Of a stretch of 47,923 nt of DNA, positions 10,201 through 44,310 are shown one piece after another; the first letter of the stretch is position 1, and every line of letters starts with the position of its first letter. The stretch spans positions 1 through 47,923 of IMG/VR virus record IMGVR_UViG_3300012000_000030; one strand, written 5' to 3'. The position numbers and the translations under genes are program-made. Below the pieces are notes generated by a model. The model ran no database searches, was not told the DNA's origin, and saw nothing but the letters and a program-made list of their open reading frames with translations. The stretch is from a virus.

Positions 10201-11938
10201 GGGCAGTGCTGGGTTGGAGCAGAGCGCCAGCGACGTCGCGGCCGCCCAAGACCGCCCCACGGCAAAAACAAACGAGATCGTATCTGACGTAAGCAAAGCT
10301 GTTTACGACCAGATGGAAAGCAAGCACGATCGCGCCGAGTACGAAAAACTTCGCCCCAAGGGCATGAGTGACGTGCAGTTCGACAGGCAGCGGCGCGAGC
10401 GGCTGAAGATGATCAGCGACGCGGCCGCAACCGTCGCCGTCGAGAAGGGCGGCGCGTTAGCCGGCGAGACCGCCGAAAAGCGCGCTGAAGTCATGGGCAA
10501 AAATATCACGCAGCAACTAACCAAACAGTTTGTGCTGCAAGGCAAGAGCCCAGAAGAAGCGGAAATGCTGGCGCGAAAAGAACTGCGCGCCGTATTAGGT
10601 ACCGACCCCAAGAAGGTCACTGAACGTTTAAATAACATTATGGCCGCCGCCACGAAGGCAAAGCGGGACCGCGGAATTGGTGTCGCGGAAGTCGCGGAAA
10701 AGGCGTCGGCGGAACAGCAGAAGTTGCTCGACGAAGTCGGAGCCGATCCGTCTGGCGCCGCGATGAAAGAAGCGATGCAGGATGACAAGAAGCGACAGCT
10801 GCTGCTCACCATCCCGAACGCTGACGCCGTATCGCTGTTTAATAAGTTTACGCCGGAAGCGCAGCGCGAAGGTTTAGCCGCGCTGGAGAGCGCCGAGAAT
10901 GGTTTGTATTCGTGGGGCCTCACCGAAGACGAACGGAAAAACGTTGGGCGTATCCGTGGCGCGATTTCTGAAAACCAGAAGAAAACTACTTCTGGCGCAG
11001 TGTCGTCACAAAATATTTCGCCAGAACGAGTGCAGCAGTTAAATCGACAAGGGCACGCCCCTGCCTCGGCTGATCGCGGCCAGACACATACGCTGTCGCG
11101 CGACGAAGCGCTGGGCGAAGTGCGGCAAGAGCTTGCTCAAATCGAAGGCCGTAAACAGGACGGCTGGTTGTGGGACTCGCTGTCGCCCGAGGATCAGAAA
11201 CGTAAAGACGAGCTTACGGCGCGTTTAAACACCATGCAATATGGTACGGGCGACGGTTACTCGTCCGGCACGATTGAAAAATTTAAAGTACACGATCCGT
11301 ATAACGCGCGCGGTGTGCTGCCCGGTCAGTCGTTCTCTATGCGCGACATCGCCGGCGAATCTGAGTGGCACTTGTTTGGCGGATATCAAAACGTGTCGGA
11401 GCGCGTGTTCATTCCGCACAACCCGAACTACACCGAAGAGCAAGCTGCCCTCGACGTTGAACGGTACGGCACCGACGAAGAAAAAGCCGAGTTCCGCAAA
11501 AACGGCGCCAAAAAGATTAACGTCACAAACCCCGACGGCTCAACGTCGCAGGTCGTGGAAAAGCCGCACATTAAACTGCTGGCTGAGCAAGCCATGCACG
11601 ACGCCGTAGCGGAAGACCCACTCACGGCGGCACGGCAGCGATTGGGCGAGCTTGAAAAGAAAAAGAAGCGCGGCTGGTTTAGCGATTACTTTGACGACGA
11701 CAAGGATCAGGCGCGGTACAACCTGCTCACAGACGTGGTAGCGCAGCAAGAACGCCGTGGCGCCTCGATGGCGGGCGGTCCGGGCGCTGGCGGCGAAATG
11801 AACATCAACGGCACGCTGATTCTGCAGGGCCTGTCCGAAGCCGTACTGCAGGCCAGTGGTGTGCGAATGGAAGAGACGCCCGAAAACGGTCCATCGGTGG
11901 ACATGGCGAACGGCACCGGCTCGCGATTCGGGAGATGA
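7271..11938 (+). CDS. Tape measure protein
   Basis: At 1555 residues this is the longest tail gene before the fibres; it sits between the chaperone pair and the baseplate genes, as tape measure proteins do. It is almost entirely predicted helix rich in Ala, Lys, Glu and Gln. By the usual ~1.5 angstrom per residue it would set a tail of roughly 230 nm. Two internal duplications are visible. RLKPAGMSDADFKKKNRAL near residue 601 recurs as KLRPKGMSDVQFDRQRRERL near 1025. EVRQELAQIEGRKQDGW recurs as AARQRLGELEKKKKRGW near the C-terminus. No peptidase or transmembrane segment was recognised. The ATG overlaps the previous stop. Confidence 0.8.
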   Translation: MKASQAGAAGYVQNPTNNPYAPPVYSPFQNASHVDDAFGYLANMYGPMLVQGMFGQDAFLAHQMPGQALLDQYTASRYQRHGAAAIQAANMAGNEQVAQKLLGFQRGVNGGKPITALDREHANVGASVLNNPIFKQFAASQIGAENLEAIMFGRRGDPTAIAAATNRIGFFRQDAAGNGPRMSAESLQQFSQNVYQNLYGPDANLDDMHGFGAVASSEMMETLFQQGRLPQSIGALSPADRVKALSKSKRDDKTLTRLAEQMGHSELMDRDYDYANATEEERKIMLKDKLPEYKKRMQATFGEIDKYTAGDKRAKSAEEIQQLDGFGLAANALDARQVSKTVKEYNGAVAAIREIFGDNGNPNAPIQELLANLQHLTNGAQTSMGAGKVESLVREIRMAARDSNTDLQNLNAIAYEKKAQARQLGLSEVTAEKGLAGDLLMGQAMADAGVFEKSGFGKLNRAEAEARMSALSTRGDASSVGRSMAALNRMTMENPDKYKDTQLAAAMEAYRRGEDTYEFKGKSFNLTEMAGRQGVQGLYNMARESGADDRLYRAYMSDQIGTEEYLNAGYAYKSQRFEMQRELSRPHEGVIRDRMTSDAIKRLKPAGMSDADFKKKNRALASGFAYKMTGVMLDETADMSVDERVATLEKRGKEELARYFQSSEGGKMNQREADRAAEQYFNAIYGDTASKRRDSLLATYSEASTASQNRTGVSIEALKQQYDKEAISDRDTKLQVNKQRAARFAQASRGTESTTLQRVGEELENLAADNTRTRSDALKAIFNVTSEDRLLQTYAPDMQEGLVAAAKMYTSATMTGGQIEKLAEAAQKNPNGAEAKQLKQLAGLKPDEKLTDENIAMVRDRAIRKSGDTAAGTTDAEKKQNEQTRKQSELIMRGFNSGKTEDVKAAATAMAQQVLGPKATKEQIEKFATAALSTDTAAFEKQMQGGTFGFGKLSAEKQQQARGIAKALRVAQDIGGLGSAGLEQSASDVAAAQDRPTAKTNEIVSDVSKAVYDQMESKHDRAEYEKLRPKGMSDVQFDRQRRERLKMISDAAATVAVEKGGALAGETAEKRAEVMGKNITQQLTKQFVLQGKSPEEAEMLARKELRAVLGTDPKKVTERLNNIMAAATKAKRDRGIGVAEVAEKASAEQQKLLDEVGADPSGAAMKEAMQDDKKRQLLLTIPNADAVSLFNKFTPEAQREGLAALESAENGLYSWGLTEDERKNVGRIRGAISENQKKTTSGAVSSQNISPERVQQLNRQGHAPASADRGQTHTLSRDEALGEVRQELAQIEGRKQDGWLWDSLSPEDQKRKDELTARLNTMQYGTGDGYSSGTIEKFKVHDPYNARGVLPGQSFSMRDIAGESEWHLFGGYQNVSERVFIPHNPNYTEEQAALDVERYGTDEEKAEFRKNGAKKINVTNPDGSTSQVVEKPHIKLLAEQAMHDAVAEDPLTAARQRLGELEKKKKRGWFSDYFDDDKDQARYNLLTDVVAQQERRGASMAGGPGAGGEMNINGTLILQGLSEAVLQASGVRMEETPENGPSVDMANGTGSRFGR

Positions 11939-11941
11939 TAT

Positions 11942-12400
11942 ATGCCCACAGTATTTAGCCCGTGCGTAGGCGCGGTTGCAAAAATTCAAGCGTGCACGGA
12001 AGAGTCCGTGTTCTCAATTAACTTCAGTGGTGCCGCGGGTAAGCTCACGGCGCCGATCGGGGGTTTTGCGCTTGAACTGAACGGCAACTATCAGTTTCTG
12101 CACACGGTCAACGACTTCATTTACGTGTATGCGTTCGGCGACCGGGTAGGCGAGTTGACGGTATCTGGCTTCGGCTTCGTGAAAACCTGTTCCGGGGCAG
12201 AAGACGCAAAGCTCTGCAATGTGTTCGAGTTCTATCAGAAAAACCGCATCAAAGAAAAAGGTGACTTGTCAGTGCAAATCGGCGACTGTGCTGACGCAAA
12301 CTTTTGGGCGTTTCTCACGGGAATGCGCCTAGAGCTGCAAGATCCGCAAACGCTCGTCGGGCAGTGGTCGCTGCGCTTCAACATCGTACCGAAGAAATAA
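11942..12400 (+). CDS. Small tail-tube-like or tube-initiator protein
   Basis: A 152-residue protein starting three bases after the tape measure stop, with GGAG about 7 bases before the ATG. It has tube-like alternating strands (VGELTVSGFGFVKTC, GDLSVQIGD) and an end reading QWSLRFNIVPKK. Position between tape measure and hub is where contractile phages place tube-initiator or hub-adaptor proteins (T4 gp48/gp54 role). That role is inferred; I do not recognise the family from residues alone. Four cysteines are present, with no obvious metal site. Confidence 0.4.
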   Translation: MPTVFSPCVGAVAKIQACTEESVFSINFSGAAGKLTAPIGGFALELNGNYQFLHTVNDFIYVYAFGDRVGELTVSGFGFVKTCSGAEDAKLCNVFEFYQKNRIKEKGDLSVQIGDCADANFWAFLTGMRLELQDPQTLVGQWSLRFNIVPKK

Positions 12401-12401
12401 C

Positions 12402-13295
12402 ATGATCAATCACGGCCGCACACTCCTGTTAAACATCTGGGCGCAAAGCGCGCAGAAGCAGCAAGCCGGGTACGAATACATACCCGGCGAGTTTCGTCCG
12501 CTCGTACTCCCGACGGCACTGAAAACCGTGCGCCGCGTGCTGTTTGGTAGCAACCCTGATCAACGCTTTTTGAATCTGCGCGCGCGCGAGCTGCTGAGCT
12601 ACGTGCACCAAACACCAGTAGCCGACTATCTGTATAAACTCGACAGTCGCGTCACGTATTGGCCAGAAGCAACTGACAGCAGTTTTAAATATCTACCAGC
12701 GCTGCGACTTACGCAGATTTCTGGTCCGTCCCGGTCGGTTGCGTTTGGCGGCGAATTTACGGCAAATAACAGCACTGGCCGGGCCAATCGGCAGTACACA
12801 ATGAGCCTGCAGCCCACCAACTACGAACAGCTGCTGTCGGAAGAAAACGAAGTGCTGTTAGTCGAAGATAATTTTGGCGTGCTTATCAAAGAGATAAACA
12901 TCGACTCGGATATTTCTTTAACTACGCAAACGCTGTACGAGCCGAAGCCACGCGGCACCTTAGACCCGGCAAATATTCTCCCCACGATTACGCTGCCCGA
13001 AACAGGGATCAAACTGCGCCTAGAACGGTTAAGCACGGATCCCGTCACGTTCAGCGGTCGTTGGTATATCGCGCTCGAAGCAAATCCGGCGCCGGCAATC
13101 ACCACGTTGTTTCCGTCGCTTGAAATGCTTGGAGAGCCGTTATTTCTGGAATTATTCGGATTGACAGATGAGGAGCCGTACGCGACGTTTAAAAATCTGT
13201 GGTTTGACCATCCGCTGCCGGCGTATCGGCTGGCCGGGCTGGTGATGGCGTACATCTATCGCGTTGAAGGAATCAGGGCGCACAGTAATGGCTGA
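12402..13295 (+). CDS. Baseplate-region protein, unknown
   Basis: A 297-residue protein not recognised. It begins MINHGRTLLLNIWAQSAQ, with weak SD, right after the preceding stop, and its end overlaps the hub gene start by 8 bases, indicating translational coupling. A central region rich in beta strands (SVAFGGEFTANN, YTMSLQPTNYEQLLS) is followed by a domain with Pro-rich turns. The C-terminal segment is hydrophobic and aromatic (LFLELFGLTDEEPYATF). The neighbourhood argues for a structural baseplate or hub-adaptor role. No enzyme motif is visible. Confidence 0.45.
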   Translation: MINHGRTLLLNIWAQSAQKQQAGYEYIPGEFRPLVLPTALKTVRRVLFGSNPDQRFLNLRARELLSYVHQTPVADYLYKLDSRVTYWPEATDSSFKYLPALRLTQISGPSRSVAFGGEFTANNSTGRANRQYTMSLQPTNYEQLLSEENEVLLVEDNFGVLIKEINIDSDISLTTQTLYEPKPRGTLDPANILPTITLPETGIKLRLERLSTDPVTFSGRWYIALEANPAPAITTLFPSLEMLGEPLFLELFGLTDEEPYATFKNLWFDHPLPAYRLAGLVMAYIYRVEGIRAHSNG

Positions 13296-14931
13296 AATTC
13301 CGTACGTCTACTCGAAGTTTAAAATAGAAGCCGAAATCGCCGGGCAGAAGTTCGACGATATCGTCGCTATTTCGGCTACGTTTGGGCTAAACAGTATTCC
13401 GACGGCTTCTCTGACGGTCGCAGTGGGCCATGATGCGCGCTCGGGGCGTACGCGCGAGGCAACCATTCATAAGCTGCGTAAAACACTTAAGCCCCGCGAC
13501 AAAGCCAAAGTCTGGCTCACGATTAGCCCAACCGCCGGCAAGACGACCAAAATGGAAGACGGCCGGTTTTTGATATTTGAAGGGATGCTTGCCGGCATTG
13601 GATACCAGCGCTCGCACAACAGTGCTAACTATGTCATCCAGTTAATCCACTGGCTCGACGACCTGAACAACTCGTCGGCGCTGAACGGCAAGTGGTTTCA
13701 AAATGCGCCGTTTTTAATGGCGGCCAACGCAGCGTTTCGTGCGCTGCAAAAAGAAGGCACCGCGCACTCCAGTGTGCCAATCATCGACGCAAACAGCGAG
13801 TTTATTAACAAGAGCAATATCCAAAGCGACCTGTGGGCCGAGGTCATCAAACCGATCTTCAAAAAGATCGCGGAGTGGGAAGTGCCATCGTCTGGCGACG
13901 CAAACAACGACGCGGCGCTTGAAGCGCTGAAACGCATACCTGCCGGCGATCCGTCGGGCCCGCAAGCGGCTAATGTTAAAACAACGCCGCTGAGTTTAGA
14001 CCTGACGGATCTGCCCGGGCACAACGTCGAGCAGTCCGTACGCACAGCTCTGACAAAAGACGCGCTGGAGTCGTTTGCGTACACGTCGTTCTGGGGCAAG
14101 CTGGTCGGCGAGTACGCGCCACAGTTTTTCTTTGCCGTATCGCCGGCAATTGAACACGCCTGCGTGATTCCGTTTTTTGGCGGCTTGAAGCACGACGGCA
14201 ACCAGACATACGTGATCAAAGGCGACGAATATAGCTACGCAAACTTTAACGCGTCGCTCGGCCAGCTTATTGACCGTGTTGTGGTTTTCTGGCCAAGCCA
14301 GCTTGATCCGATGCTTGCAACTGGCGGCCAAGCCAACATGTCAGACGTGTATACGCAGCCAGCCGGACAGTACCCCGACGCCCCCGAAGACGAACGAAAA
14401 GGTTTGAAGCTGTTCAAAGATCTACCGTCGTGGCTAACGAACATGTCGCCGTGGCCGATATTTACTGGCGCCACAACCGGCATCAAAGGCAAACAACCCG
14501 GCGACTGTCTTGCGCCAGCCGAGGGCGAAGAGGCACCCCCGCCAGAATGGCTACTCCCGTCCGACATCGCCGAAGCTATGGCCGGCGGTGTTTGTAACAG
14601 ATTTGCCGAACACTTCTACAAAACAGAGTTTTTAAGTCAGCGCTACGGCGAGCTTTCCGGCAAGCTGCGTTTTGATATCGCGCCGGGCAGTATTGTTAAA
14701 ATTGAGATGCCGCAGTCTGAAATTCAGTCTGATGGCTTTATGGTGGCGGCCGTAACGCAGGTGTCATACGCAATTAACGCAGAGCGCGCGTTGGCTGGAA
14801 CATCGTTCGCGCTTTCGTACATCCGCACCGAAGAAGAAGACAAAGACACAAACCTTGTTTCCAAAGAATACGCGCCGCTGTACACCGAAGGCACCAAGTG
14901 GCCCGGCGGCCCGCTCAGAAAGCCAGAATAA
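13288..14931 (+). CDS. Baseplate hub protein (gp27 / gpD-like)
   Basis: A 547-residue protein resembling the hub ring subunits that join tube and spike. The N-terminal part has the barrel-type pattern of late-control gpD/gp27/VgrG proteins (SKFKIEAEIAGQKFDDIVAI, then RFLIFEGMLAGIGYQRS and YVIQLIHWLDDL). The C-terminal part returns to beta structure (GKLRFDIAPGSIVKIEMP, FMVAAVTQVSYAIN). The ATG at 13288 is preferred over an in-frame TTG at 13264; it overlaps the previous stop. Neighbours are the tape measure and wedge genes, which supports the hub call. The OB-fold and needle are on the separate spike gene at 3011. Confidence 0.65.
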   Translation: MAEIPYVYSKFKIEAEIAGQKFDDIVAISATFGLNSIPTASLTVAVGHDARSGRTREATIHKLRKTLKPRDKAKVWLTISPTAGKTTKMEDGRFLIFEGMLAGIGYQRSHNSANYVIQLIHWLDDLNNSSALNGKWFQNAPFLMAANAAFRALQKEGTAHSSVPIIDANSEFINKSNIQSDLWAEVIKPIFKKIAEWEVPSSGDANNDAALEALKRIPAGDPSGPQAANVKTTPLSLDLTDLPGHNVEQSVRTALTKDALESFAYTSFWGKLVGEYAPQFFFAVSPAIEHACVIPFFGGLKHDGNQTYVIKGDEYSYANFNASLGQLIDRVVVFWPSQLDPMLATGGQANMSDVYTQPAGQYPDAPEDERKGLKLFKDLPSWLTNMSPWPIFTGATTGIKGKQPGDCLAPAEGEEAPPPEWLLPSDIAEAMAGGVCNRFAEHFYKTEFLSQRYGELSGKLRFDIAPGSIVKIEMPQSEIQSDGFMVAAVTQVSYAINAERALAGTSFALSYIRTEEEDKDTNLVSKEYAPLYTEGTKWPGGPLRKPE

Positions 14932-20824: not shown

Positions 20825-22759
20825 ATGTCCGGTAACTGGCTGCACAACATTAAGCACGTAAACCCCGGCGAGCCGGTGCAGGCGGGAATTGTTTCCCGCC
20901 CCGACCGCACGCTGGAGGAACGCACCGACTACCTCAAAGACCGGCTCGACGCGGCCGCAATTGGCCGTGTGCTGGTAGACAGCAACGCTACCATCGCGCC
21001 TGATGTGTTGCCCGGTCAGCCGGTGTTCTGGAACTGGGTTGAACACCGATACGAAAAAGCGCTAGCCGCGGCCGCGCCCGACCCGGAAACACAGACGCTG
21101 GTCGTACAGCCGTCGTCAGATTGCGTCGGCATCTGCGTCACTAAAAAGTCTGAAACGCTCGGCGATATCGTGCTGCGCGGAATTGTCGATATTGCTGACT
21201 TACAAAACGCGATCGACGGGCCGATCACGCCCGGCCGCTATTACTTGTCGTCGGCAGTACCGGGCAAACTCGTAAAGCAGCGTCCCGCTGTTACGGTAAG
21301 CGTTTGTCACGTACAAGGCCCGAAAGATAGCTGCACGACTGTGCCGCGCGTCGTCGTCATGCCGAACGTGCGTGACTTTATTGACGAGCATATTCACTAT
21401 CGGTTTGATCTAGCGACGGCGCCGGTCGGCACGGCCGCGACACAAACAATCAACGACGTTGAGCGCGTAGTCATTACGCCGCCGCAGAATGCCGCCGTCG
21501 CTGCGGCAACGCCCGGTTGGTTGCCGGCCGGCCATTCTGTGTTTAACGGCAAAGCACCTAACGGTGCGCTGTTCGGTTACAACATCGCGGCGCATTCGGC
21601 ACTGTCGAACGTGTGGCCGCCGCTGCCGATCCAATCGGTTGCGATGTTGTGGGATAAGGGCGACGGGCACGTCGGCTCAACAGAAATTCCGCTGGGTCGC
21701 AACGGATTGGCGATCTGCGACACAAACGGCATTTGGTGGATGAGCGACTGTGTCGGTGATGTGCCGTGGCCGGAAACACCGACCACCGATCCGAATCCGC
21801 CGCCGGTTGGCGAGTGCCCGCGCACAGAGAACATGCGCCTTGCCGTTGTGTATCTCCGCATGCTAGTCGGAAACGACAGGAACAGTGTGACGAGTCTCGT
21901 TAAAGACGTTGACGCCGACACCGGCACGTTAACAGAAAGCACGCCGGATGCGACCACTGTTACAAGTCCGATCTCGATCACCAACTGCGCAGACAACCCG
22001 GCGACTACTGGCGACTTGCAACTGAACTTAGATCTGCAGATCGCGGAGGGGGACGCGCGTGGCGGGCAAGCGCTGAAGGGCGTCGTAAACCGACACCAGT
22101 TGACTCGCGGCTGGATTGCCGAGGGCGCATTTACGCTGTCGAACCAGATTGCGATTACCGGTTCGCGCAGCAATCCGCGGACGCTGACAACAGAAGAAAA
22201 GCAGCAGTTCAATTTAACCACAACCAACCCGATCACATTACACCAAGGCATTCTCCGCATCGACTACACGGATCAGTTGGTTGAGCGCGAAATCTCTCCA
22301 CAAATCATCCGGTTGAGCGATACGGTTGAGCGTCTGTACATGGATATCCCGTATCTCGGCTTTCCCGGAAATCAAGCGTCCCTGCTGCGACTTCGGTTTA
22401 ACGTTCCGGGCAGCAATCTCGGCGACAATCTGAAAATGCGTATCCGCGTGCAACTGTTCGGTCGCGACGGCACACAGACGCAACGCAAGGTAATGCCCTC
22501 GCTGTACATGACTCGCCGAATCCTCGCGCTCCCGGTGAGTGCCGGGGCAGACGGGCTGGCGCTTGAAACAGCGGACACTAATTTGATCTTTGACTCTAGC
22601 GCCAACTTATACATAGATCGTGTCATCCAGCGCGATAGCGACGAGTTTGCCGTCAGCGAAGGTGATACCGTGCTGGTCACAATCGGTCGCACGGAAGACA
22701 ACGTCTACGGAGAAATCGGCGTATTACGCGTCACAGGCATCGTCTATAGCGCGACATAA
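20825..22759 (+). CDS. Putative tail fibre or virion protein
   Basis: A 644-residue protein with GGAGG upstream of its ATG. It begins MSGNWLHNIKHVNPGEPVQA, with a helical stretch ERTDYLKDRLDAAAIGRVLV, then beta-rich domains. A Pro-rich linker near the middle (TTDPNPPPVGECPRTEN) separates an N-terminal part containing GNGLAICDTNGIWW-like small-domain sequence from a C-terminal jelly-roll-like part (LLRLRFNVPGSNLGDNLKMR). The N-terminus lacks the R-x-Y-P module of the next fibre genes, so this may be the platform they attach to. Function inferred from neighbours. Confidence 0.45.
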   Translation: MSGNWLHNIKHVNPGEPVQAGIVSRPDRTLEERTDYLKDRLDAAAIGRVLVDSNATIAPDVLPGQPVFWNWVEHRYEKALAAAAPDPETQTLVVQPSSDCVGICVTKKSETLGDIVLRGIVDIADLQNAIDGPITPGRYYLSSAVPGKLVKQRPAVTVSVCHVQGPKDSCTTVPRVVVMPNVRDFIDEHIHYRFDLATAPVGTAATQTINDVERVVITPPQNAAVAAATPGWLPAGHSVFNGKAPNGALFGYNIAAHSALSNVWPPLPIQSVAMLWDKGDGHVGSTEIPLGRNGLAICDTNGIWWMSDCVGDVPWPETPTTDPNPPPVGECPRTENMRLAVVYLRMLVGNDRNSVTSLVKDVDADTGTLTESTPDATTVTSPISITNCADNPATTGDLQLNLDLQIAEGDARGGQALKGVVNRHQLTRGWIAEGAFTLSNQIAITGSRSNPRTLTTEEKQQFNLTTTNPITLHQGILRIDYTDQLVEREISPQIIRLSDTVERLYMDIPYLGFPGNQASLLRLRFNVPGSNLGDNLKMRIRVQLFGRDGTQTQRKVMPSLYMTRRILALPVSAGADGLALETADTNLIFDSSANLYIDRVIQRDSDEFAVSEGDTVLVTIGRTEDNVYGEIGVLRVTGIVYSAT

Positions 22760-22772
22760 TAGGTGAGCCGCC

Positions 22773-23714
22773 ATGCCGATCGGAAACTGGAACCTACAGT
22801 GGCTCAACCACAATTCGCAGCGCTCGTACCCGCTGACGGAGCGCGCCACCAAAACATCTGTTGACGGAACAATTCGGCTGCCGGACAGCTTCATTGTTGC
22901 GTTATACCTACCAATCCACTCGGGGTTAGATTTTGCGCCCAACAACTTTCATATCAAAAGCGTATTAATTGCCCCGACCGGTTTTAACATCACCGTTGGC
23001 TACACAGCCAACGGGCAGTCTGTAGACGTTGCTGCGGCTAACATCATCCGCAGCAATTACCAGCCAAACCGCTCATACGCGCTCGGCGGCGTGGGCGACT
23101 TCGACGACTGCGTCGGCCGTGTCGTGCTCGGCAACCTCGATGAGATAGACCAGTTGCCGCCCGGACTCTACGAGTTCGATAAGGCCGGCGGTGAGCTTGA
23201 AACCGACGCGATTCGGCCGATGATCCGCGCCGTCACCCGGCTGCGTGTTTCAAACAACGGCGAACTGAGCGAACCGATTTACGGCGACGTGACTCTGGTA
23301 GCCGGTAACAACGTGCGAATCACGGCCGCCAACTTTGGGGCCGAGACTGAGATCATTTTTGACGCCATCGCAAACACGAACCTGAACGAAGAGTGTTACT
23401 GCGAGGTGCCAGAGATCGGGTCGTGTATCCGCTGCATCAACGGCGTATGCAGCACTGACGGCAACTTTATCTTGGCGCCGGACGACTGCATTCAGATCAC
23501 GCCGATGAGTAACGGCCTGAAGTTCTCGGATACCTGCGCGCAGCCGTGCTGTGGCTGCACTGAGCTGGACGCCATCATCGACCAGATCAACCGCTTCGGC
23601 GACGGCGTCACCACGCTGCAAAACTTTATTACGCGGCTCGGGTCTGAGGTGACCCAGATGAGTCTTGTCGTGCTTGGAAGCCAACTCGGCGATTCTGGCT
23701 GCTCAACGGGGTGA
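22773..23714 (+). CDS. Tail fibre protein with R-x-Y-P-[LF] N-terminal module (1)
   Basis: A 313-residue protein, first of a set of consecutive fibre paralogues. The N-terminal module reads NWNLQWLNHNSQRSYPLTER, followed ~15 residues on by IRLPDSFIVALYLP. Other members have the same pattern, suggesting a common docking domain. An internal module reads CINGVCSTDGNFILAPDDC at about base 23427. A Cys cluster (CAQPCCGCTELD) follows, then a C-terminal helix IIDQINRFGDGVTTLQNFI that could trimerise. AGGTGAG precedes the ATG. The cysteines may cross-link chains after assembly or bind metal. Receptor unknown. Confidence 0.6.
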   Translation: MPIGNWNLQWLNHNSQRSYPLTERATKTSVDGTIRLPDSFIVALYLPIHSGLDFAPNNFHIKSVLIAPTGFNITVGYTANGQSVDVAAANIIRSNYQPNRSYALGGVGDFDDCVGRVVLGNLDEIDQLPPGLYEFDKAGGELETDAIRPMIRAVTRLRVSNNGELSEPIYGDVTLVAGNNVRITAANFGAETEIIFDAIANTNLNEECYCEVPEIGSCIRCINGVCSTDGNFILAPDDCIQITPMSNGLKFSDTCAQPCCGCTELDAIIDQINRFGDGVTTLQNFITRLGSEVTQMSLVVLGSQLGDSGCSTG

Positions 23715-23717
23715 TCC

Positions 23718-25328
23718 ATGACGTGCCCCGACTTTCAAACCGCCCCTCGTGGTCGCGCTGGACTTGGCGTAGTTCAGCCGCAAAGCGGCTTGGATTATCC
23801 GCTTGTTGCGCCGTCGGCAGATATTAAATACCTGCTGGCAGACCTGCATCTTGCCTACGACGACGCAGGCGAATACGACCCGCAAGTCACACCGGCAGCA
23901 CACCCACTGCGAATTAAATATCTTTACGGCGCGGGCTGCATTGAAAACACGCCGCCCGCCGGTTTTCCGACAACGGCACATGCTGCCGACATTGTAATTG
24001 TCGACGCAAACGAACGTGTCATTCTTGATACCACGGCCGGCGCCGTGACGTTCAACGCGCAGGACTGGAGCGCTGATTACAGAATCTACGAGTGGAAGAC
24101 GCCCCGTGCCGTGTGCCGCCTCGTCGCTTACACCACGTGGCCAGACGACGACAGCGGTCTGACCGACGACGACACACGACGAAACTACAACAAGTATTTA
24201 GCGCCAGCGAATGCTCGGCTGGATGAGCGGGCTGTGTACAAGATGCCAAAACGCCTGCTGACGCTCCGCGCCCGCAGCGGCCAGACCACAAGCCCGCGCT
24301 ACACCGGCAGTTTCAAATTCGTTAACGGCTACAACACAGAAATCGCCGTCACTGAGCGCGCCACGAAGAATTTCCGCAACAATACCAAGGTTAACTTTAG
24401 CGCTGTCGCCGGCAGCGGTCTCGGGCGTTACGGAAACTGCCCCGGCGGCGCGACTGTACCAATTACAAAGATCAACGGCGTATCCGCGCTCGATGGCGAC
24501 TTCCGCCTGTCGGCGACAGACTGCCTGTGGATTCGCCGGCCTGTGACAGTAGGTGTTTCGCCGCCGTATCCGGTGAACCCGTCGACAACAGCGCAGCAGC
24601 AAATTGGCGCCGACTGCGACCCGTGCTGTGGCTGCAAAGACTACTCAGACACGGCGAAGTACATGAACGATACGAGCTACCGGTATAAGCTCATCGGGCA
24701 ACGCGCTGAAAAAGTTCGTACGGAGCACGAAAACAACATCGCGCGCTGGCTCGATCAGCGCGCATGCAGCGTTCAGCGGCCGTTGCGATTGTTTATGGTG
24801 CCACAGCGTTGCCCGTACGTCGACGTCGTCATGATGTTATGCAATCCCTGCGAAACATGCGTCGACCCGACACGCCTTACTGTGACCTTCAATGTAGCCG
24901 GCGATCTAGTGCCGTCTGACCCGGAGAATCAAACGTCAGTAGCCGTACGGCCAAGCTTGGAGTGCGGCTACACGACGATGCACGCGCCGGGAATCCGCGG
25001 CGGAGCTGTTGGCATCACCGTCAGTGGTGATGGGTTGCAGTATTCAGCAGCGTTTCCGCAACTGAAACCCGGTGACTCAGCGTACGTGCAATTCCGTTTG
25101 AAGTTCAGCCAGTTTGACCCAAACAACCCGGCGGTCGAGGAAACGCGCGCCCGCGGGCCGTATGTGATCACAGGCGTACTCACCGGCACGTACCTCAACA
25201 CTGGCGCGCCTGTACTAACAAATTGCGGCAAAGATTTAACCGACGGATTGCCGCCTCCCGCCGCGATGGCTGAAACAGTGCAAACCCTGCACTGCAACTC
25301 AGAAGGCAAAACAGAGGCGCCCTGCTAA
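23718..25328 (+). CDS. Tail fibre-related protein with shared ING module and Cys cluster
   Basis: A 536-residue protein starting three bases after the previous stop, with GGGGTGA as SD. The N-terminus contains QPQSGLDYPLVAP, a loose version of the Y-P-L module. The middle has KINGVSALDGDFRLSATDC and, after a short spacer, CDPCCGCKDYSD, matching the arrangement in the preceding gene (INGV…DGNF…DC, then PCCGC). The C-terminal ~170 residues form a beta domain (LTVTFNVAGDLVPSD, GDSAYVQFRLKFSQF) reminiscent of an Ig-like or DUF11-type fold. The pairing with the previous gene suggests partner subunits. No catalytic motif. Confidence 0.55.
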   Translation: MTCPDFQTAPRGRAGLGVVQPQSGLDYPLVAPSADIKYLLADLHLAYDDAGEYDPQVTPAAHPLRIKYLYGAGCIENTPPAGFPTTAHAADIVIVDANERVILDTTAGAVTFNAQDWSADYRIYEWKTPRAVCRLVAYTTWPDDDSGLTDDDTRRNYNKYLAPANARLDERAVYKMPKRLLTLRARSGQTTSPRYTGSFKFVNGYNTEIAVTERATKNFRNNTKVNFSAVAGSGLGRYGNCPGGATVPITKINGVSALDGDFRLSATDCLWIRRPVTVGVSPPYPVNPSTTAQQQIGADCDPCCGCKDYSDTAKYMNDTSYRYKLIGQRAEKVRTEHENNIARWLDQRACSVQRPLRLFMVPQRCPYVDVVMMLCNPCETCVDPTRLTVTFNVAGDLVPSDPENQTSVAVRPSLECGYTTMHAPGIRGGAVGITVSGDGLQYSAAFPQLKPGDSAYVQFRLKFSQFDPNNPAVEETRARGPYVITGVLTGTYLNTGAPVLTNCGKDLTDGLPPPAAMAETVQTLHCNSEGKTEAPC

Positions 25329-25331
25329 GCC

Positions 25332-27065
25332 ATGTCTATACGTAATCAGAACTGGTACAACCTGCAGTCTACACGGCGCTACCCGCTCGACGATTTATCG
25401 AGCGGGTTGGACGATGCTGGTGTGTTCATCCGCGACGACATTCTTGTCGATTGCCATATTCGGTTTCCAAACACGCTTGGCAAATATCTTTACGTGCAAG
25501 GCTTGACGGTCTCCGCCGGTATCGTGACTGCCGTCTTTGGCGTTGTTGACGATCTTGAGGCGACAGCAGGGCAAACGATTTGCGCGGTCTCTGTGCCGCA
25601 GCCAATCACACCCTACGTGAATTACAGCGTGACTGCCTTGGTGCCCGGCGTATCTGGGTGGGTGGCGTTCGGCCCCGGAACAGATACGGCGTTTACAGGT
25701 CGCTACAGCACGCCAAAACAAACAGTCATTCAGCCACGAAATGCGCGCCCATATCGCCCGCTGCCGATTCCCACGCTGGGCAAAATCCACCTTGGCACAG
25801 CGCTGCAAGGCGTTGTGAATCTTGTCGGCAGTTCACCAGTTACCGCGCAATACGAAACAATCGAATACGAAAACAAGACCTACCCCGCCATCGTCTTTCG
25901 GCTTGATGCAGCGCTGGTAACGGGCGATTACAACCCGCTCGCCCTCTTCTTAGGCCCCTGCGGCCAGCGCCCAGAAAGCGGGACGTGCCCGAAGACGCCT
26001 ATTGAAACTATTAATGGTGTGGCGCCGGACTGCAACGGAAACATCAATATCGTGTTCGACGGCTTTAATGATATCAATTTCGCCAACTGCGGCGGCGCCG
26101 ACATTGTTACCGACACCAGCTTAAAAGCCGTCTGCGACGCAAACAAACCCAAGCGCCCGCAAGAGTTCAAAGATCTTTGCTGCACGCTTACTGGCGAAAA
26201 CATTTATACGTTCAGCAGCCTCAACGCGTTTCCACCGGCCGGCGAAACAAATCAGCTGTACCTTGCGTTTGATACGAACAAGGTGTATCGCTGGTCGGGC
26301 ACAAACTACGTGGAGACAGACATTGTTATCGACGAGTACTGCTGGCCTGACCCGACGACGGCAATCGACCTGATCGTCGACGAAACGCTGGATACGCCAG
26401 CGTACGCGTGCATGCCGTTGCCGCTGTGCATTGATTTCAGCTCGTGCCAGCCCAACGCCTACTTTGTCACGCAGACAGGCGTATTCGCAGGTCAAGAAAC
26501 GACTGCGCCGCCCGTGTGTGGAAACTGCGACCCCGGCGAGTTTGACGCCAACATCGGAACCGGGCTGACAAATCACGGCACATACGTATCGGCAGGCATC
26601 GGCGGCACAAACGTCGCGATTCTGAAAAACTGCGCGACAGACTGGGCGCTAAACCACTCCATCATGACCGAGTTTAAAATCGGCACAAACGGCGTGGCGC
26701 GAAACGGCGGGCTCGTGCTGAATTACACGCAAACGCTCGAACTAGGGCAAGTCGTGACGCGCTATATCGTTGTAATGGTCGACGCCACCCGCGGGAAGGT
26801 GCGCGTCATGCGCTACAACGACGGCACATTTACCGACGAGCTGGCCGTCAACTACAACGCAAAAGTAAATACGTGGTATCGGATGTACGCGAGCCTGAAC
26901 CTCAACGGCAGCAACCTCAGTGTCACGTTTTCCCTGTCCGAGTTAGATGGCGCACATCCAGTTAACGGCTTTACCGACATCATTAACCCCGGCGACGTCA
27001 CTGGCGCGGTCGGCTTGTTTGCAAACCAGTCGTCAACGTTCTTCAACAAATTTGTGGTGCAGTGA
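25332..27065 (+). CDS. Tail fibre protein with R-x-Y-P-[LF] module (2) and C-terminal lectin-like domain
   Basis: A 577-residue fibre. N-terminal module NQNWYNLQSTRRYPLDDL, then IRDDILVDCHIRFP. An ING module (TINGVAPDCNGNINIVFDG) lies near base 26002. Around residue 293 is FSSLNAFPPAGETNQLYLAF, then NKVYRWSGTNYVE, a small fibre domain common in phages (P-x-x-G-E…LY…Y-R-W-S-G). The C-terminal ~185 residues look like a concanavalin/LamG-type jelly roll (VNTWYRMYASLNLNGSNLSV, then TGAVGLFANQSSTFFNKFVV), suggesting glycan binding. Order: docking, ING, linker domain, lectin-like tip. Sugar specificity cannot be read from the sequence. Confidence 0.6.
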   Translation: MSIRNQNWYNLQSTRRYPLDDLSSGLDDAGVFIRDDILVDCHIRFPNTLGKYLYVQGLTVSAGIVTAVFGVVDDLEATAGQTICAVSVPQPITPYVNYSVTALVPGVSGWVAFGPGTDTAFTGRYSTPKQTVIQPRNARPYRPLPIPTLGKIHLGTALQGVVNLVGSSPVTAQYETIEYENKTYPAIVFRLDAALVTGDYNPLALFLGPCGQRPESGTCPKTPIETINGVAPDCNGNINIVFDGFNDINFANCGGADIVTDTSLKAVCDANKPKRPQEFKDLCCTLTGENIYTFSSLNAFPPAGETNQLYLAFDTNKVYRWSGTNYVETDIVIDEYCWPDPTTAIDLIVDETLDTPAYACMPLPLCIDFSSCQPNAYFVTQTGVFAGQETTAPPVCGNCDPGEFDANIGTGLTNHGTYVSAGIGGTNVAILKNCATDWALNHSIMTEFKIGTNGVARNGGLVLNYTQTLELGQVVTRYIVVMVDATRGKVRVMRYNDGTFTDELAVNYNAKVNTWYRMYASLNLNGSNLSVTFSLSELDGAHPVNGFTDIINPGDVTGAVGLFANQSSTFFNKFVVQ

Positions 27066-27841
27066 TGGCTGGCGCACGCATTCTATTTCCAGAGTTCCGC
27101 GACGAGCAATCAACGTCTCGGTATCCGTTTGCTGACACGGCAACGCTGCAAAGCTCAACAGACGCGAGTATTCAGATTGCGGCAGACACGTTCATCGACG
27201 CGTCTTTTTTCGCGATCGGCGGCAGCACCCGGGCGTTCATTTCGTCGATCTCGGTAGCCGCCCAAAAAATAACAATAACCGTCGGCGACTCAGATCTCGC
27301 TGCCCGGATCTCCGCCAGCTACGACCCGCTGAGCCCGCCAGCTGACGGCATAATCACGTTCAACGACACGTACGGCCGTCCCGCCGGAATGCTGCTTTCA
27401 ACGCCGGTCGCACTCGCTCGATTTTCGGCGTGGGCTATCGGGACATACACGTTCACACAGGCCGAGACCGAATTTGTTTCGAGCGTGGTCATCCCCGCCA
27501 ACGAGCCGGGAGTGCGTGCCCTGCGGCCAGAAACAAAGCAGTTTTTAACCGGCGACGTTTGGCTCGTCGGCGATCAGGGCGTTGTTTTACGGCAAGACGG
27601 CCCGGGCGTCATCCGGGTGGACATTGTTGGCGTGCCGCTGTTCAAACGTTTCCTGTGCGAACCGCAGAGCGAAGACTTTCCGACTAAGCGCTACATCAAG
27701 ACAATCAACGGCTGCGGCCCGGACGAATTCGGGAATTTCACCTTCACGGCAACAAATCAACTTGCGCCCGACGCTGTGTTGCGCATCTATGTCGACGGCG
27801 ACACAATTGTTATCGACACCGTCGGCAGGAGCGTTGTGTAA
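27065..27841 (+). CDS. Tail fibre protein with R-x-Y-P-[LF] module (3)
   Basis: A 258-residue protein whose ATG overlaps the previous stop (TGATG); an in-frame GTG at 27062 is an alternative. The N-terminus reads FPEFRDEQSTSRYPFADTAT, then IQIAADTFIDASFF, the docking pattern shared with genes at 22773, 25332 and 27841. Beta strands follow (AQKITITVGDSDLAARI). The ING module TINGCGPDEFGNFTFTATNQ is near base 27693, followed by a short C-terminal strand pair (AVLRIYVDGDTIVIDTV). It lacks a distal receptor domain, so it may be a structural member or adaptor of the fibre bundle. Confidence 0.6.
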   Translation: MAGARILFPEFRDEQSTSRYPFADTATLQSSTDASIQIAADTFIDASFFAIGGSTRAFISSISVAAQKITITVGDSDLAARISASYDPLSPPADGIITFNDTYGRPAGMLLSTPVALARFSAWAIGTYTFTQAETEFVSSVVIPANEPGVRALRPETKQFLTGDVWLVGDQGVVLRQDGPGVIRVDIVGVPLFKRFLCEPQSEDFPTKRYIKTINGCGPDEFGNFTFTATNQLAPDAVLRIYVDGDTIVIDTVGRSVV

Positions 27842-28755
27842 TGCCTCGTCCCGGATTTTACAACGATAACGAATATCGCGCGTATCCGTTTGTATACAAC
27901 AAACCGGACACGCTTCCGGCGCTGCCCACCCACGTGATTTTAGACGCCGGGTTCATCATGGGCCTCGACGCCAAGTTTGACGACACCATACACACTGTAT
28001 GGTTAAAACAGATCAACAAAGTGGGTTACACCTTCGAGTTTGTATTTGCCACAAACGCCAGTCCGGCGACTGTTTCGTTCTTTCGCTCGACGGCCGCCGG
28101 TGAGTGGGAAAACGAGTACGCCGAGTCGGTGGTCGATACCGCTAACCCGTGCGCCGACGAGCCGATCTGGTCTGGGTTTATCGTGACGGGCTCGATGGCG
28201 GAACTGGCCGCGCGATTTGTAATAGCAGCGGTTGGCGGCACATGGGCGTTTCAGGAAAATGACTATCAAATCGAACCGGGCCTGCTGCAAAACCTGAACA
28301 AAGCGTATCTGCGCTCGATCAGTGTCGGCAACTATGATCGCGTGCGCGTACCGCCGTGCGACGTAACAGGAATCAACGACAATCGCCCGGTTGTCTTAAA
28401 CGCGCGTTGCATGAAGGGCGACATCCGATTGAAGGAAGGTTATAACTGTCTGATTACGCAAACAGAGCGCGCCAACGAAATCAGCGTTACGGCGTCGAAA
28501 GGCGCGGGCGCGGGAGCAACAAGCGCGGAGCTGTGCGCGAACGGCAGCGAAGTTCCGCTCTACCCCGGCGAGCAGCTTCCGCCCGACAGCAAGTTCTACA
28601 GCGGCGGCCCAGCATGCAACGAAATCATTTCCACGATCAATGGCGTCGGCGGGTCGAATGTGAATTTAATTGGCGGGGCTGGCATTAACATCTTGATCGA
28701 CAACGGGACGATCACGGTGCAAAAGAAACCAAACGCACAAGTTAACTGCACGTAA
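27841..28755 (+). CDS. Tail fibre protein with R-x-Y-P-[LF] module (4)
   Basis: A 304-residue protein starting on the A of the previous TAA (TAATG). N-terminal pattern [17 protein letters not shown], then [14 protein letters not shown], as in its paralogues. A helical stretch near 28280 ([20 protein letters not shown]) is followed by [20 protein letters not shown], the C-x-x-G-D-I-x-L variant of the ING/DGNF module. A C-terminal [17 protein letters not shown] gives a second copy. It immediately precedes the giant Cys-repeat/collagen fibre and may link it to the baseplate; this is inference from order. Confidence 0.6.
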
Positions 28756-28756
28756 C

Positions 28757-31700
28757 ATGGCTGAAAATCTGTTTAAAGACTCGCAGTGCCCAATCGAGCC
28801 CGTACCAAAAGCGGACTTCGATTTTATTTCGTCGGTGTGCGATATCGCACCACTGCCGCCGCCGATCTACGGATGCGCCGCGCCGATCATTCCGATAGAA
28901 CCGCCCACTGAAGTAGGGTTAAAGTGTCCTGATTTTTCGACGCTAACAGCAATCGGCGTCAACTTCATCGACGACGGCGGCTCCTGCCCGCCAGCGAAAA
29001 ACGAACTGAAAATCGAACGGCGCGACATCGACCCGTGCCAGTACGACGTCACGCTTGATCTAAATATCCCGATCCCGCGCATTCCGTGCCCGGTTATTTC
29101 TGCCGGCGAGTTCGGATTAGAGGTCGGCTACCAAGACTGCGTCGTTCCAACCAGCGAGATCAAAATTACGCCGATCATCACACCCGGTGACTGCAACACC
29201 CCGGATCAGTGTGAGTTCGTCATCGACTTGGATTTAAAAATCCCGGTGCCGAAGCCAGCCTGCCCACAAATCGTCATTACAGACTTTGCCGTCCGGTCTG
29301 GGTACTCCGACTCGGCGTGCATGGTGGGGGCGCAAAATAAATTCTCAATCACGCCGATAGTTACAGCCGGTGATTGCGACACAGCCGATCAGTGTCGTTT
29401 TGAAGTCGAGCTTGAGATTGCCGTGCCGATTCCGCGCCCCCCGTGCCCCGTTATTAACCTGACGAATTTTTCGGTCGACAGTGGGTACTCCGACGCTAAC
29501 TGCCTGCTGAACAAACAAAATTATTTTAATATCACTGCGCGCGAGGTTCCCGGCGACTGCAACACGCCGACCCGCTGCGAGTTCGACGTTGACCTGCAAA
29601 TCGCGATCCCAATCCCGCGGCCGTCGTGCCCGACGTTAAATCCGCCAACATTTAAAGTCACGTCCGGTTACGACGACTCTGGGTGCCTTGTCGGCGAAAA
29701 CAGGTTTGAAATTACGTCCCGCGTCATACCGGGCGATTGCAACACACCCGATCAGTGTGAATTCGATTTTGATCTGGAAATCGTCATTCCAATCCCACGG
29801 CCGCCGTGCCCGATCATCAACCAACCGACGCTTACCGTAAACACAGCTTTCAACGATCAAAGCTGCATCACGCCGTACTCAAAATTTGATATCACAACGC
29901 GGCACACCGCGGGCAATTGCAACACACCCGATCAGTGTGAGTTCGATGTCGACCTAGAGATTAACATCCCGATTCCGCGGCCGCCGTGCCCAATCATTAA
30001 CACGCCGACGTTTACGGTTAAAACAGCGTACAACGATCAAAGCTGCGGACTCGGTGGTTCTAAGTTTGAAATCACGCCGCGACATACACCGGGCGATTGC
30101 AATACACCCGATCAGTGCGAGTTTGACGTTACGCTGGAGATCAGTGTTCCGATCCCCAGACCGCCGTGCCCAATCATCAACCGACGCACGTTTGAAGTCA
30201 AAACTGGCTTCTCGGATTCGGCGTGCGTGCAAGGCGGCTCAAAATTTGAAATCAGCACAGAGCACGTCCCGGGAGACTGCAATAACCCGGGGCAGTGCAA
30301 ATTTAACGTCGATCTCGAAGTCGTTGTTCCAATTCCGCGCATTCCGTGCCCGGTAATCAATCAGCCGCAGCTTGAGGTCAACGTCAAATACGACGACCCG
30401 ACGTGCGGCTCGGGTGGCGGGTCTACGTTCACAATCACTCCGCGTCATACCAAAGGCGATTGCAACACGCCGGATCAGTGTGAATTTGATATCGAGCTGA
30501 CGATCGATATCCCGATTCCAAAGCCGCCCTGCCCAAACATTAACGTTAACACGTTTGAGGTCACCACCGGCTTCGCCGACTCGTCGTGCGTGCAGGGTAA
30601 ATCAAACCGCTTTGAAATCACGCCGCGCATCACGCCGGGCGACTGCAACACACCCGACCAATGCGATTTTGACGTTGATCTGGAAATCGTTATTCCGATC
30701 CCGGCGCCACCGTGCATTTCGCTCAACGCAAAATCGTTCACAGTAAAAAGCGGATATGCCGGTACAAGCTGCGGTAGCGGAACGTCGAAGTTTGAAATCA
30801 TCACGACTGTTACGCCGGCGCAAGGTTGCGATCAGCCAGAACGGTGCGACTTCGACATCGTTCTTGACATCGTAGTGCCGATCCCGCGCCCAAAGTGCCC
30901 GACGATCACGAAGTTCATGACCGTCAACAGCCATTATCAAGATGGTCCGGGCGGACGGCTCAGCAACACGCCCAGCTTTTTTAATCTGATTGCGACGTCT
31001 ACGCCGGCGACATGCAACGACCCCGGCTCGTGCACATTCTTTTTCGATTTGCACATTGACATCCCCACACCACGACCGCCGTGCACAAACGTGCGCATCA
31101 AAAACCTTGAACACGAGGTTGGCTATGACGTAGCGCCAAAGTTCAAGTTTGAGATTCAAAAATGCGCCGAGTACGACGAGAAGCGCGGCACAAACAATCC
31201 GCCCGTCTGCTGCTTTGAAGTCGATTTTGAACTGTACATTCAAATTCCAAAACCGCCGTGCACAACCGTCTCGATGGTTGTGGACATGCGCGTTTTGCCG
31301 CCACAAGCAGACCCGTACGCGTTTGCCAGCGGCCCGATGTTTAACTTTGATCCGGGTTATTACTGCGACGTTGTATTGCCGCTGTATATCGGGATACCAA
31401 AACCGTGTATTCCGAAGATCGAAGGCGGTGAAGGTATTGCGCTGACGGGATGCGGCATCGAACCGCGCGCCGAGATTCTGGTTGAGCAACTTGATCTTTG
31501 CGCGTTCAAGCTGACGCCGTACATCTGGATTCCAAAATGCCCGCCGCAACCGTGCCCGCAAATTTCATTAGACGTGAATGTGACGGAATCGGAGTACCTG
31601 TACGGCTACGGCACCGTGGTTCCGACACAGGTCGGCGGCACATCCGGTGACGAACCCGGCGTCTGCCTGTTTGATATCAAGATTGAGCTTGGCATTCCGG

Positions 31701-33277
31701 CGCCATGTTTCCCCGAATTTACCGGCGGCAATCTTGATATGCGGCCGTACGGCGGCGGCACACCAGAAATTTTTGTCGAGATAACAGAGACCGCACGCTG
31801 TAAGTATCAAGTCGGTGGCTACGCATACATTCCGAAAGGCGTCAGCGGCGGCACAGTAAATATCACTCCGTCTGGTGTCGGTAGCGGCAGCCTTGATTAC
31901 GACGCCGAGAGCGGCCAGTTAACAATCAACATTGACCTGAACACAACCGAATGCCCAACTAGCTCTAGTGGTGGTGGTTCGGGCGGCGGTGGTGGTTCGT
32001 GCGAGCAGGGCGCCACCGGTCCACAAGGCGAACCGGGGCCGCAAGGTGACCCCGGGCCAAAAGGCGACCCCGGTCCAAAAGGCAATAAGGGCGACAAGGG
32101 CGAAAAAGGCGAAAAAGGCGATAAGGGCGAAAGAGGCGAAAAAGGTAATCAAGGTGTTCCCGGCCCACGCGGCCCGCAAGGGTTTATGGGTATGGAGGGT
32201 ATGCAGGGGCCGCAAGGACTTAAAGGCGACAAGGGAGAAAAAGGCGACAAGGGCGACAAGGGCGACATCGGCGCGCAGGGCGTGCCGGGTCTAAGCATTA
32301 TCGGGCCGCAAGGCGAAATGGGACCGACGGGTTGCACGGGCGATGCAGGCGCAAAAGGTGACGCCGGACCGCAAGGCGATAAAGGCGATAAAGGCGATAA
32401 AGGCGCCACCGGTCCAAAAGGCGACAAAGGCGACAAAGGCGACAAAGGCGCCACAGGTCCACAAGGCGTCATGGGCCCAACCGGTCCGCGTGGCGCTACA
32501 GGCCCTATGGGTCCGACGGGCGCGGCGGGCACACAAGGTATTACCGGCGCGACTGGTCCTGTGGGCGCAACGGGCGCTATTGGCGCAACCGGCGCGACCG
32601 GACCTGTCGGCCCGCAAGGTACGACCGGGACGCGTGGCGCGACCGGCGCTACGGGCCCGATTGGTTTACAAGGCCCGCAAGGTGCCACCGGACCGCAGGG
32701 CGCTGACGGCGCTGTTGGCGCTCGTGGGGCAACGGGCGCGAAGGGCCCGACAGGTGTAACCGGCCCGCAGGGCGCTACTGGCCCGCGTGGCGCGACTGGT
32801 CCCGCAGGACAGAGCGGGCAGAACGGCCAAACGGGTGCCACAGGCATTCAGGGCGCGACTGGTCCGCAAGGTTTACAAGGAACAATTGGCCCACGAGGTT
32901 CGACCGGACCTGTTGGTCCCGCGGGTGCGGCGGGTGTTTCTGGCGCACGTGGCGCCACCGGCCCGCAGGGTGTTACAGGCGCAACTGGTCCCAGCGGCAT
33001 TGCTGGCGCGACAGGTCCGTGCGGCAATTCGGGCGCAACCGGGGCGACAGGGCCGCAGGGTGCAACCGGAGTTATACCAACCGGCGGTATAATTACATTT
33101 ACGCCGGCAGCCGTTGGTAGCGGCACGATTACTGCAAACGCGTCTGCGATTAACGGCAGCGTTACGCTCAATCTTACTGAACTGGTGCGATCTGGCGCGT
33201 TCCTTAACGAGCTTATTGCCCAAATTAATACAAACACCAACCTGCGTAACGCATTGCGCTCGGTATTAAATAACTAA
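28757..33277 (+). CDS. Giant Cys-rich repeat / collagen-like tail fibre
   Basis: A 1506-residue fibre, the most distinctive gene here. Residues 1-~85 are a Pro/Cys-rich head. From residue ~80 to ~1030 there are tandem beta repeats, nine close copies of ~60 residues starting at residue 146, each reading [12 protein letters not shown][10 protein letters not shown], S-x-C and F-E-I-T-P-R, then weaker copies. A Gly/Ser linker leads to residue 1085, where 116 Gly-X-Y triplets run with one five-residue break (GLSII). The first triplets are charged (GDK, GEK), the later ones GAT and GPQ. A GG-x-[IV]-x-[IF]-TP-x-x-VGSG module occurs just before and just after the collagen. The C-terminus [20 protein letters not shown] is a helix shared with the next protein. 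Likely a long trimeric fibre; receptor unknown. Confidence 0.75.
29192..31009 (+). repeat. Tandem ~181-bp coding repeats (Cys-rich beta module)
   Basis: Nine units from 29192 to 30826 average 181.7 bp (60.6 codons); a tenth, weaker unit follows and degenerate copies continue to ~31900. Each close unit opens TGCAACACxCCxGATCAGTG, coding CNTPDQC. Copies differ at many synonymous positions, so the array is old or under selection at protein level rather than recently expanded. Confidence 0.85.
32009..33070 (+). repeat. Collagen-like Gly-X-Y coding tract (116 triplets)
   Basis: Glycine occurs every third codon across 354 codons with a single break at GLSII. The 5' third is rich in GDK/GEK/GPK triplets and includes nearly identical 9-bp units (GGCGAYAAA/G). 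The 3' two thirds are GAT, GPQ and GPT triplets. A cysteine lies just before the tract (GSCEQG) and near its end (GPCGNS). Confidence 0.9.
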
Positions 33278-34177
33278 ATGACGACAGAACCCAACAATAA
33301 CGATATCGAGTTCGTCCCGTACGACGGACCTGTGCTGGCCGAATCCGGCGGCGGCTGTGGTGTTTGCCCGGCTGGTCCGCAGGGACCGCAGGGTAATCCC
33401 GGCCCCGCCGGGCCCGCGGGTCCGGCTGGCGCGCGAGGGCCCGTAGGCCCGCAAGGCGCTGTCGGCATGACCGGCCCAAAAGGCGCTACAGGCGCTACGG
33501 GGCCGCAGGGTCGTGTTGGCGCGACTGGTACCAAAGGCATAACAGGCGCTACTGGGCCGACAGGGGTTTCAGGTATACAGGGCGCCACGGGGGCTACAGG
33601 GGCCACAGGCGCGACAGGCCCGGCAGGTCTCAACGGGGTCACAGGAGCCACAGGACCAACCGGAGTGGCCGGTATAAGCGGCGTTAAGGGCTCGACGGGT
33701 CCGACAGGCCCAACGGGTGCTAAGGGCGCTACAGGGGCTACAGGAGCCACAGGCGCTACGGGTCCGCGCGGGCAGACGGGCCCGAAAGGCGACCGTGGGG
33801 CGCAAGGGGCGCAGGGGCCGCAAGGTTTAATCGGGCCGCAGGGCTTAATGGGCCCGCAAGGCGCGGCCGGACCGCAGGGGGCGCAAGGTCCACAGGGTCC
33901 GTCCGGCCCGGCAGGGGCTCGTGGCCAACGCGGCGACACGGGTTCGACAGGTCCGCAGGGCGCCACAGGTCCACGCGGCGTTACAGGCCCGACCGGTCCC
34001 AAGGGCGCTACCGGAGCGCAGGGTGCCGGATTTACTGGCGCGACTGGCCCGTGCGGTAACCCGGGCGCTACCGGCGCCACAGGTCCGCAAGGCGAACTTA
34101 CACTTACGCAACTCATTACTGAATTGCAAACAAACAGCGCGTTACGCGCCGCGGTAAAATCTGCAGCGCAATCGTAG
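33278..34177 (+). CDS. Collagen-like fibre protein 2
   Basis: A 299-residue protein whose ATG follows the previous TAA directly and has no clear SD, so it is probably translated by coupling. Residues 1-32 form a short head ([20 protein letters not shown]). Residues 33-271 are 78 Gly-X-Y triplets with one five-residue break (GAGFT). The collagen ends [19 protein letters not shown], almost identical to the end of the preceding giant fibre. The C-terminus [20 protein letters not shown] parallels [20 protein letters not shown] there. It is most simply a short collagen homotrimer or a partner chain of the giant fibre. Phage collagens lack proline hydroxylation, and GAT/charged triplets may replace that stabilisation. 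Confidence 0.75.
33374..34090 (+). repeat. Collagen-like Gly-X-Y coding tract (78 triplets)
   Basis: 239 codons with glycine every third position, one break at [11 protein letters not shown] and GPT triplets dominate, including two runs of four GAT in a row. The antisense strand gives long Pro/Ala-rich open frames that are artefacts of this composition. Confidence 0.9.
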
Positions 34178-44237: not shown

Positions 44238-44310
44238 GCCGGTGTAGCTCAGTTGGTAGAGCCACTGATTTGTAATCAGTAGGTCGTCGGTTCGAGTCCG
44301 ACCGCCGGCT
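44238..44310 (+). tRNA. tRNA-Thr (anticodon TGT)
   Basis: A complete 73-base cloverleaf. The acceptor stem GCCGGTG pairs with CGCCGGC (one U-G), the D stem is GCTC/GAGC, the anticodon stem ACTGA/TCAGT closes the loop TTTGTAA (anticodon TGT, reads ACA), the variable loop is AGGTC and the T stem GTCGG/CCGAC closes TTCGAGT. The discriminator base is T. CCA is not encoded, so the host must add it. ACA would be a less-used Thr codon in a GC-rich host, which would explain carriage. Confidence 0.95.

Follow-up and report, generated by a model that had tools for sequence, protein, structure and literature searches.

Several described systems resemble parts of the locus analysed here. In the collagen-like phage tail fibres EPclA and EPclB of E. 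coli O157 prophages, a collagen stalk has other domains on both sides, and the proteins carry PfN, coiled-coil, and PfC domains (PMC3368898). The Agrobacterium phages Milano and 7-7-1 have a disulfide-linked tail and capsid; the two reports describe structural proteins that are rich in Cys, from a phage whose tail is contractile, and place disulfides in its baseplate, sheath, spikes, and tail fibres (PMC10811340, PMC12796354). Cnidarian minicollagens, which are small eukaryotic capsule proteins, are reported to join collagen to Cys-rich domains that cross-link through disulfides, and are an analogy only (PMC4863159).

Here, we describe a gene that joins a collagen-like segment to a long tandem repeat with four conserved cysteines. 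Taken as a whole, we consider it fairly probable that the gene encodes a long, disulfide-stapled trimeric fibre of the tail or baseplate of an uncultured contractile-tail phage.

The fibre gene, its repeat array, and its relatives

The window, the whole stretch of DNA analysed, is an entire virus record of 47,923 bases; the terminase large subunit, sheath-like protein, and Baseplate_J protein encoded in it indicate that it is part of a contractile-tail phage. A tRNA-Thr gene with anticodon TGT lies at 44238-44310. The features of the fibre gene and its neighbours are the following:

22773-28755, + strand: the five genes upstream in this operon, whose products are candidates for baseplate or fibre-attachment proteins; Cys content 2.8% (synteny, composition)
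28757-33277, + strand: whole fibre gene, 1,506 aa (ORF; homologues of like architecture)
28757-28924, + strand: N-terminal anchor-like segment, residues 1-56, with conserved C11, C28, and C40 and the motif NLFKxSxC (12 aligned homologues)
28925-29065, + strand: unit 0, residues 57-103; C57, C77, and C94 are the equivalents of C8, C27, and C51; no C45 (homologue alignment)
29066-30874, + strand: units 1-10 in tandem (residues 104-706), each 58-61 residues long and with all four Cys
30875-31060, + strand: unit 11, residues 707-768, with C8, C45, and C51; no C27
31061-31237, + strand: unit 12, residues 769-827, with C8, C51, and an extra pair of C803 with one of C818/C819
31238-31846, + strand: degenerate C8/C51 units, residues 828-1030, with the co-varying extra pair C899/C928
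32009-33076, + strand: collagen-like segment of 118 G-x-y triplets (residues 1085-1440) that contains cysteines 1193 and 1422 (Pfam Collagen PF01391, E 1.9e-50)
33077-33274, + strand: C-terminal domain, residues 1441-1506, with partial similarity to the end of the gene that follows
33278-34177, + strand: second collagen-like protein, its C-terminal end similar to that of the fibre (Pfam search, synteny)

The fibre protein contains 67 cysteines. Its self-matches number 199 at lag 60 and 172 at lag 61, far beyond the maximum of 86 reached in 1,000 shuffles, and the array lies in frame within one ORF (28757-33277, + strand), which confirms the tandem repeat of about 60 residues that had been read from the letters of the sequence. 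The sequence-only reading counted nine close repeats starting at 29192; instead, ten units (residues 104-706) carry all four cysteines, with a mean length of 60.3 residues, and 29192 falls inside unit 1, the actual start of the array being at 28925-29066. A three-Cys unit (residues 57-103) precedes the ten full units. The weaker copies that the same reading placed toward the collagen are indeed present, as a three-Cys unit (residues 707-768) followed by several degenerate units that extend to around residue 1030. The motif CNTPDQC is exact in six units. On average the units share 53% amino-acid and 58% nucleotide identity, and identical residues use the same codon in only 51% of cases; because the units have diverged in DNA, with differing codons, the protein pattern is old and kept by selection rather than the product of recent duplication.

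Relatives of the fibre were found on 13 IMG/VR contigs of up to 205 kb, plus the identical L005; within this set, L006 and L010 are the same, L016 and L021 nearly so, and two (L013 and L014) are incomplete. Over the best segment, the relatives are 42 to 79% identical. Gene order is kept from 20825 to 28755 upstream and for most genes downstream to about 36400, and the repeat occupies a single place in each of seven relative genomes. Most homologues have 10 four-Cys units; L008 has 11, L016 and L021 have 12, and L017 has 13, with the register kept throughout. None of the isolate terminases among the matches listed exceeds 30% identity to the one encoded here, and two tail genes had no match in 50,697 phage records, so the lineage has no close cultured member in those records.

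The genes around the fibre have cysteines of their own. Cys content averages 2.8% in the region 22773-28755 vs 0.8% before it. The adjacent products of 22773-23714 and 23718-25328, which have 12 and 18 Cys, resemble each other along a segment of 160 aa (29%, E 4e-9) in which INGV and CCGC motifs occur; INGV is present as well in the 25332-27065 protein, which has 16 Cys. Judged by their sequences, these upstream proteins look like paralogous baseplate or fibre-attachment subunits. Several proteins of the fibre operon have an N-terminal R-x-YPL/F motif. Within the collagen triplets, cysteines at 32333 and 33020 (residues 1193 and 1422) lie in PTGCTGD and GPCGNxGATG; both recur in most or all full-length homologues, the second is found too in the neighbouring collagen gene, and they are possible inter-chain cross-links of the collagen helix. 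In the L012 homologue (8001-13361), the collagen segment is broken by a non-collagen domain.

Searches of Pfam and NCBIfam gave no match to the part before the collagen, including Ig-like, BIG, and known fibre repeat families, and the repeat had no sequence match in the PDB. The best PHROG match to the repeat part (15 residues, E 0.005) was no more than noise. A tblastn search of phage and plasmid records returned nothing even at E 10, where chance matches are expected, so that this result may partly reflect filtering; tblastn against phage records did recover distant terminases. An origin from a bacterial surface protein finds no support, as scans of bacterial genome contigs gave no copy, whether the query was the entire N-terminus or eight repeats. 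The open-access literature searched yielded no Cys-rich phage fibre repeat of this kind. The earlier statement that the repeat belongs to no named family is therefore borne out, with no known fibre or Ig-type family emerging, and on these searches the repeat is an undescribed one. A profile scan with the C-terminal domain gave matches confined to the same clade.

Proposed cysteine pairing in the repeat

Among 136 aligned units, C8 and C51 are present in 100%, C45 in 92%, and C27 in 83%, the shortfall of C27 and C45 lying mostly in end units and in small alignment shifts. Thus, the four cysteines that had been noted as conserved in this one protein hold across units and homologues. A total of 27 pairing schemes were enumerated, with one rule applied to every unit, for the 582 cysteines of 11 homologues. 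Only the scheme C8(i)-C51(i) plus C27(i)-C45(i+1) leaves 0 orphans; the informative cases are the array ends (unit 0 without C45 and the unit after the last complete one without C27), which are orthologous among the homologues and so amount to about four informative unit positions rather than 11 times four, and unit 0, unit 13, and the exclusion of the extra pairs of unit 12 are by-eye calls from the alignment. Later units have C8 and C51 alone, apart from supernumerary cysteines. This pattern of co-occurrence suggests that C8 and C51 pair within a unit and that C27 pairs with C45 of the following unit, as putative bonds within or between chains.

AlphaFold monomer runs reached a pLDDT of 56 for three units (69 rows) and of 48 for residues 1-1064; such poor monomer values may be expected for an obligate oligomer. 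Both runs gave three strands per unit, A (about 9-22), B (33-41), and C (50-63), at low confidence and with provisional positions. The predicted A-B-C meander has C27 at one end and C8, C45, and C51 at the other; with C27 and C45 at opposite unit ends, a C27(i)-C45(i+1) bond would link the adjoining ends of neighbours. The modelled ends agree with the co-occurrence pairing, which was obtained without structure. In strand C, F53, V55, L57, and I59 alternate with acidic residues at 54, 56, and 58, and these hydrophobic and acidic faces would suit a sheet that is buried on one side. In a Foldseek comparison with solved structures, including trimeric beta-shaft folds, the best PDB match was at E 0.054 (TM 0.13), and a weak viral match, A0A6J7WTV6, was at E 7e-4 (TM 0.22); given the low confidence of the query model, these matches do not serve as evidence.

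If the disulfides were all within the unit (C8-C51 and C27-C45), the units would be independent beads on a string, with nothing stapling one to the next. This architecture is simple and leaves only 22 of the 582 cysteines as orphans, two per protein, at the array ends. Nevertheless, the two orphans fall in the same places in 11 of 11 homologues and vanish when the pairing is offset by one unit, and the predicted positions of C27 and C45 at opposite ends of the unit (low confidence) also speak against it; we regard this arrangement as unlikely.

A second alternative concerns the role of the units, which might be receptor-binding or decoration modules of the baseplate or head, their cysteines merely stabilising small domains and not a load-bearing shaft. 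The loops around C27 are variable, the copy number varies, and the L017 homologue (8001-13574) carries an additional domain, about 110 residues long, inserted in the A-B loop of one repeat immediately ahead of C27. This insert is apparently internally duplicated (DRLAISNAQQSVGMIV... / ARRAIPQISRFVGMRV...), and its place suggests that the loop faces outward. However, a tandem array beside collagen favours a stalk, and a shaft could carry a side domain as an insert in one of its loops, leaving the modular role quite unlikely in our judgement.

The extra cysteines bear on the chemistry of the bonds. C899 and C928 occur together in seven homologues and are both absent in five, and C803/C818 and NIC/YDC (in L016 and L021) co-vary in twos as well. 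An SC/IPQC pair is present in L007, L009, and L015 and not in L012; as L009 groups with L012 in a tree of four neighbouring genes, its two cysteines must have changed together more than once, unless recombination accounts for the pattern. The anchor cysteines C11, C28, and C40 are odd in number and have no partner scheme. The gain and loss of cysteines in pairs favours disulfides over a Cys4 metal site, so that, of the disulfide- or metal-stabilised shaft first proposed, the disulfide half gains and the metal half is disfavoured. Metal-binding trimeric phage fibres exist, an example being T4 gp37 with its HxH iron sites. The predicted topology would bring four cysteines to one junction, where C27 and the next unit's C8, C45, and C51 might bind Zn or an Fe-S cluster, with metal instead of disulfide holding the shaft, but this is quite unlikely, given that C27/C45 are lost as a pair in degenerate units while C8/C51 persist, that extra cysteines are gained and lost in twos, unlike a four-ligand site, and that only 7 His occur in 724 residues, with at most a third of units having His at any one repeat position and no conserved HxH-type ligands found in the repeat.

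A proposed architecture for the fibre

In the disulfide-stapled architecture that we infer, the fibre would be very long and probably homotrimeric, belonging to the tail or baseplate of a phage with relatives of about 200 kb. Residues 1-56 would anchor its N-terminus to the particle, and about 17 units would make up the shaft. Each 60-residue unit would form a three-stranded antiparallel sheet (A, B, and C) whose last strand is amphipathic. A clamp would join C8, which precedes strand A, to C51 at the start of strand C, and a staple would join C27, in the A-B loop at the far end, to the C45 that lies in the following unit's B-C loop, giving one continuous rod. The collagen helix would lengthen the shaft by about 354 residues; with the 2.9 Angstrom per residue used in PMC3368898, this comes to about 100 nm. 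The small C-terminal domain, probably a trimerisation or tip helix, would register the three chains. That the locus holds both a new repeat and a new principle of fibre building, in which staggered disulfide staples bond each beta unit to its neighbour and the rod leads into a collagen helix, is in our view a serious possibility, if somewhat short of probable.

Phage fibres are usually assembled in the reducing cytoplasm, and for that reason disulfides are unusual in them. In this fibre the bonds would form after its release from that compartment, and, once outside the cell, the staple would probably protect against mechanical pull, proteolysis, and unfolding. A search of seven relative genomes for oxidoreductases gave no DsbA; glutaredoxin matches came from four of the seven (two over the cut-off) and, glutaredoxin being common in large phages, are not diagnostic.

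Comparison with described systems

The closest architecture is that of the collagen-like phage tail fibres. As in those fibres, a long G-x-y segment (PF01391, E 1.9e-50, 118 triplets) has other domains on both sides, and the gene lies in a tail module, with Baseplate_J, a sheath-like gene, and a conserved operon. However, the PfN, coiled-coil, and PfC domains of EPclA and EPclB (PMC3368898) were not found here, and the N-terminal Cys-repeat has no family match.

The closest working analogue is the disulfide-linked Milano tail; Milano and 7-7-1 set a precedent for a phage tail with disulfides throughout. Structural proteins of Milano average 2.1% Cys vs 6.5% in the repeat region here, and the available portions of the reports describe no tandem Cys repeat (PMC10811340, PMC12796354). 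No PDB chain or phage record matched when a relation to this tail was sought, with the PDB searched as a whole. The minicollagens, in turn, gave no Pfam match to the fibre protein.

Overall, the locus adds an unnamed repeat family, from which a sturdy modular protein rod could come, and its conserved four-Cys repeat, with bonding deduced from co-occurrence, is a testable case of extracellular covalent fibre locking. Phage fibres with collagen are known as such, and what would be new as a principle of construction is the staple, provided that it can be demonstrated.
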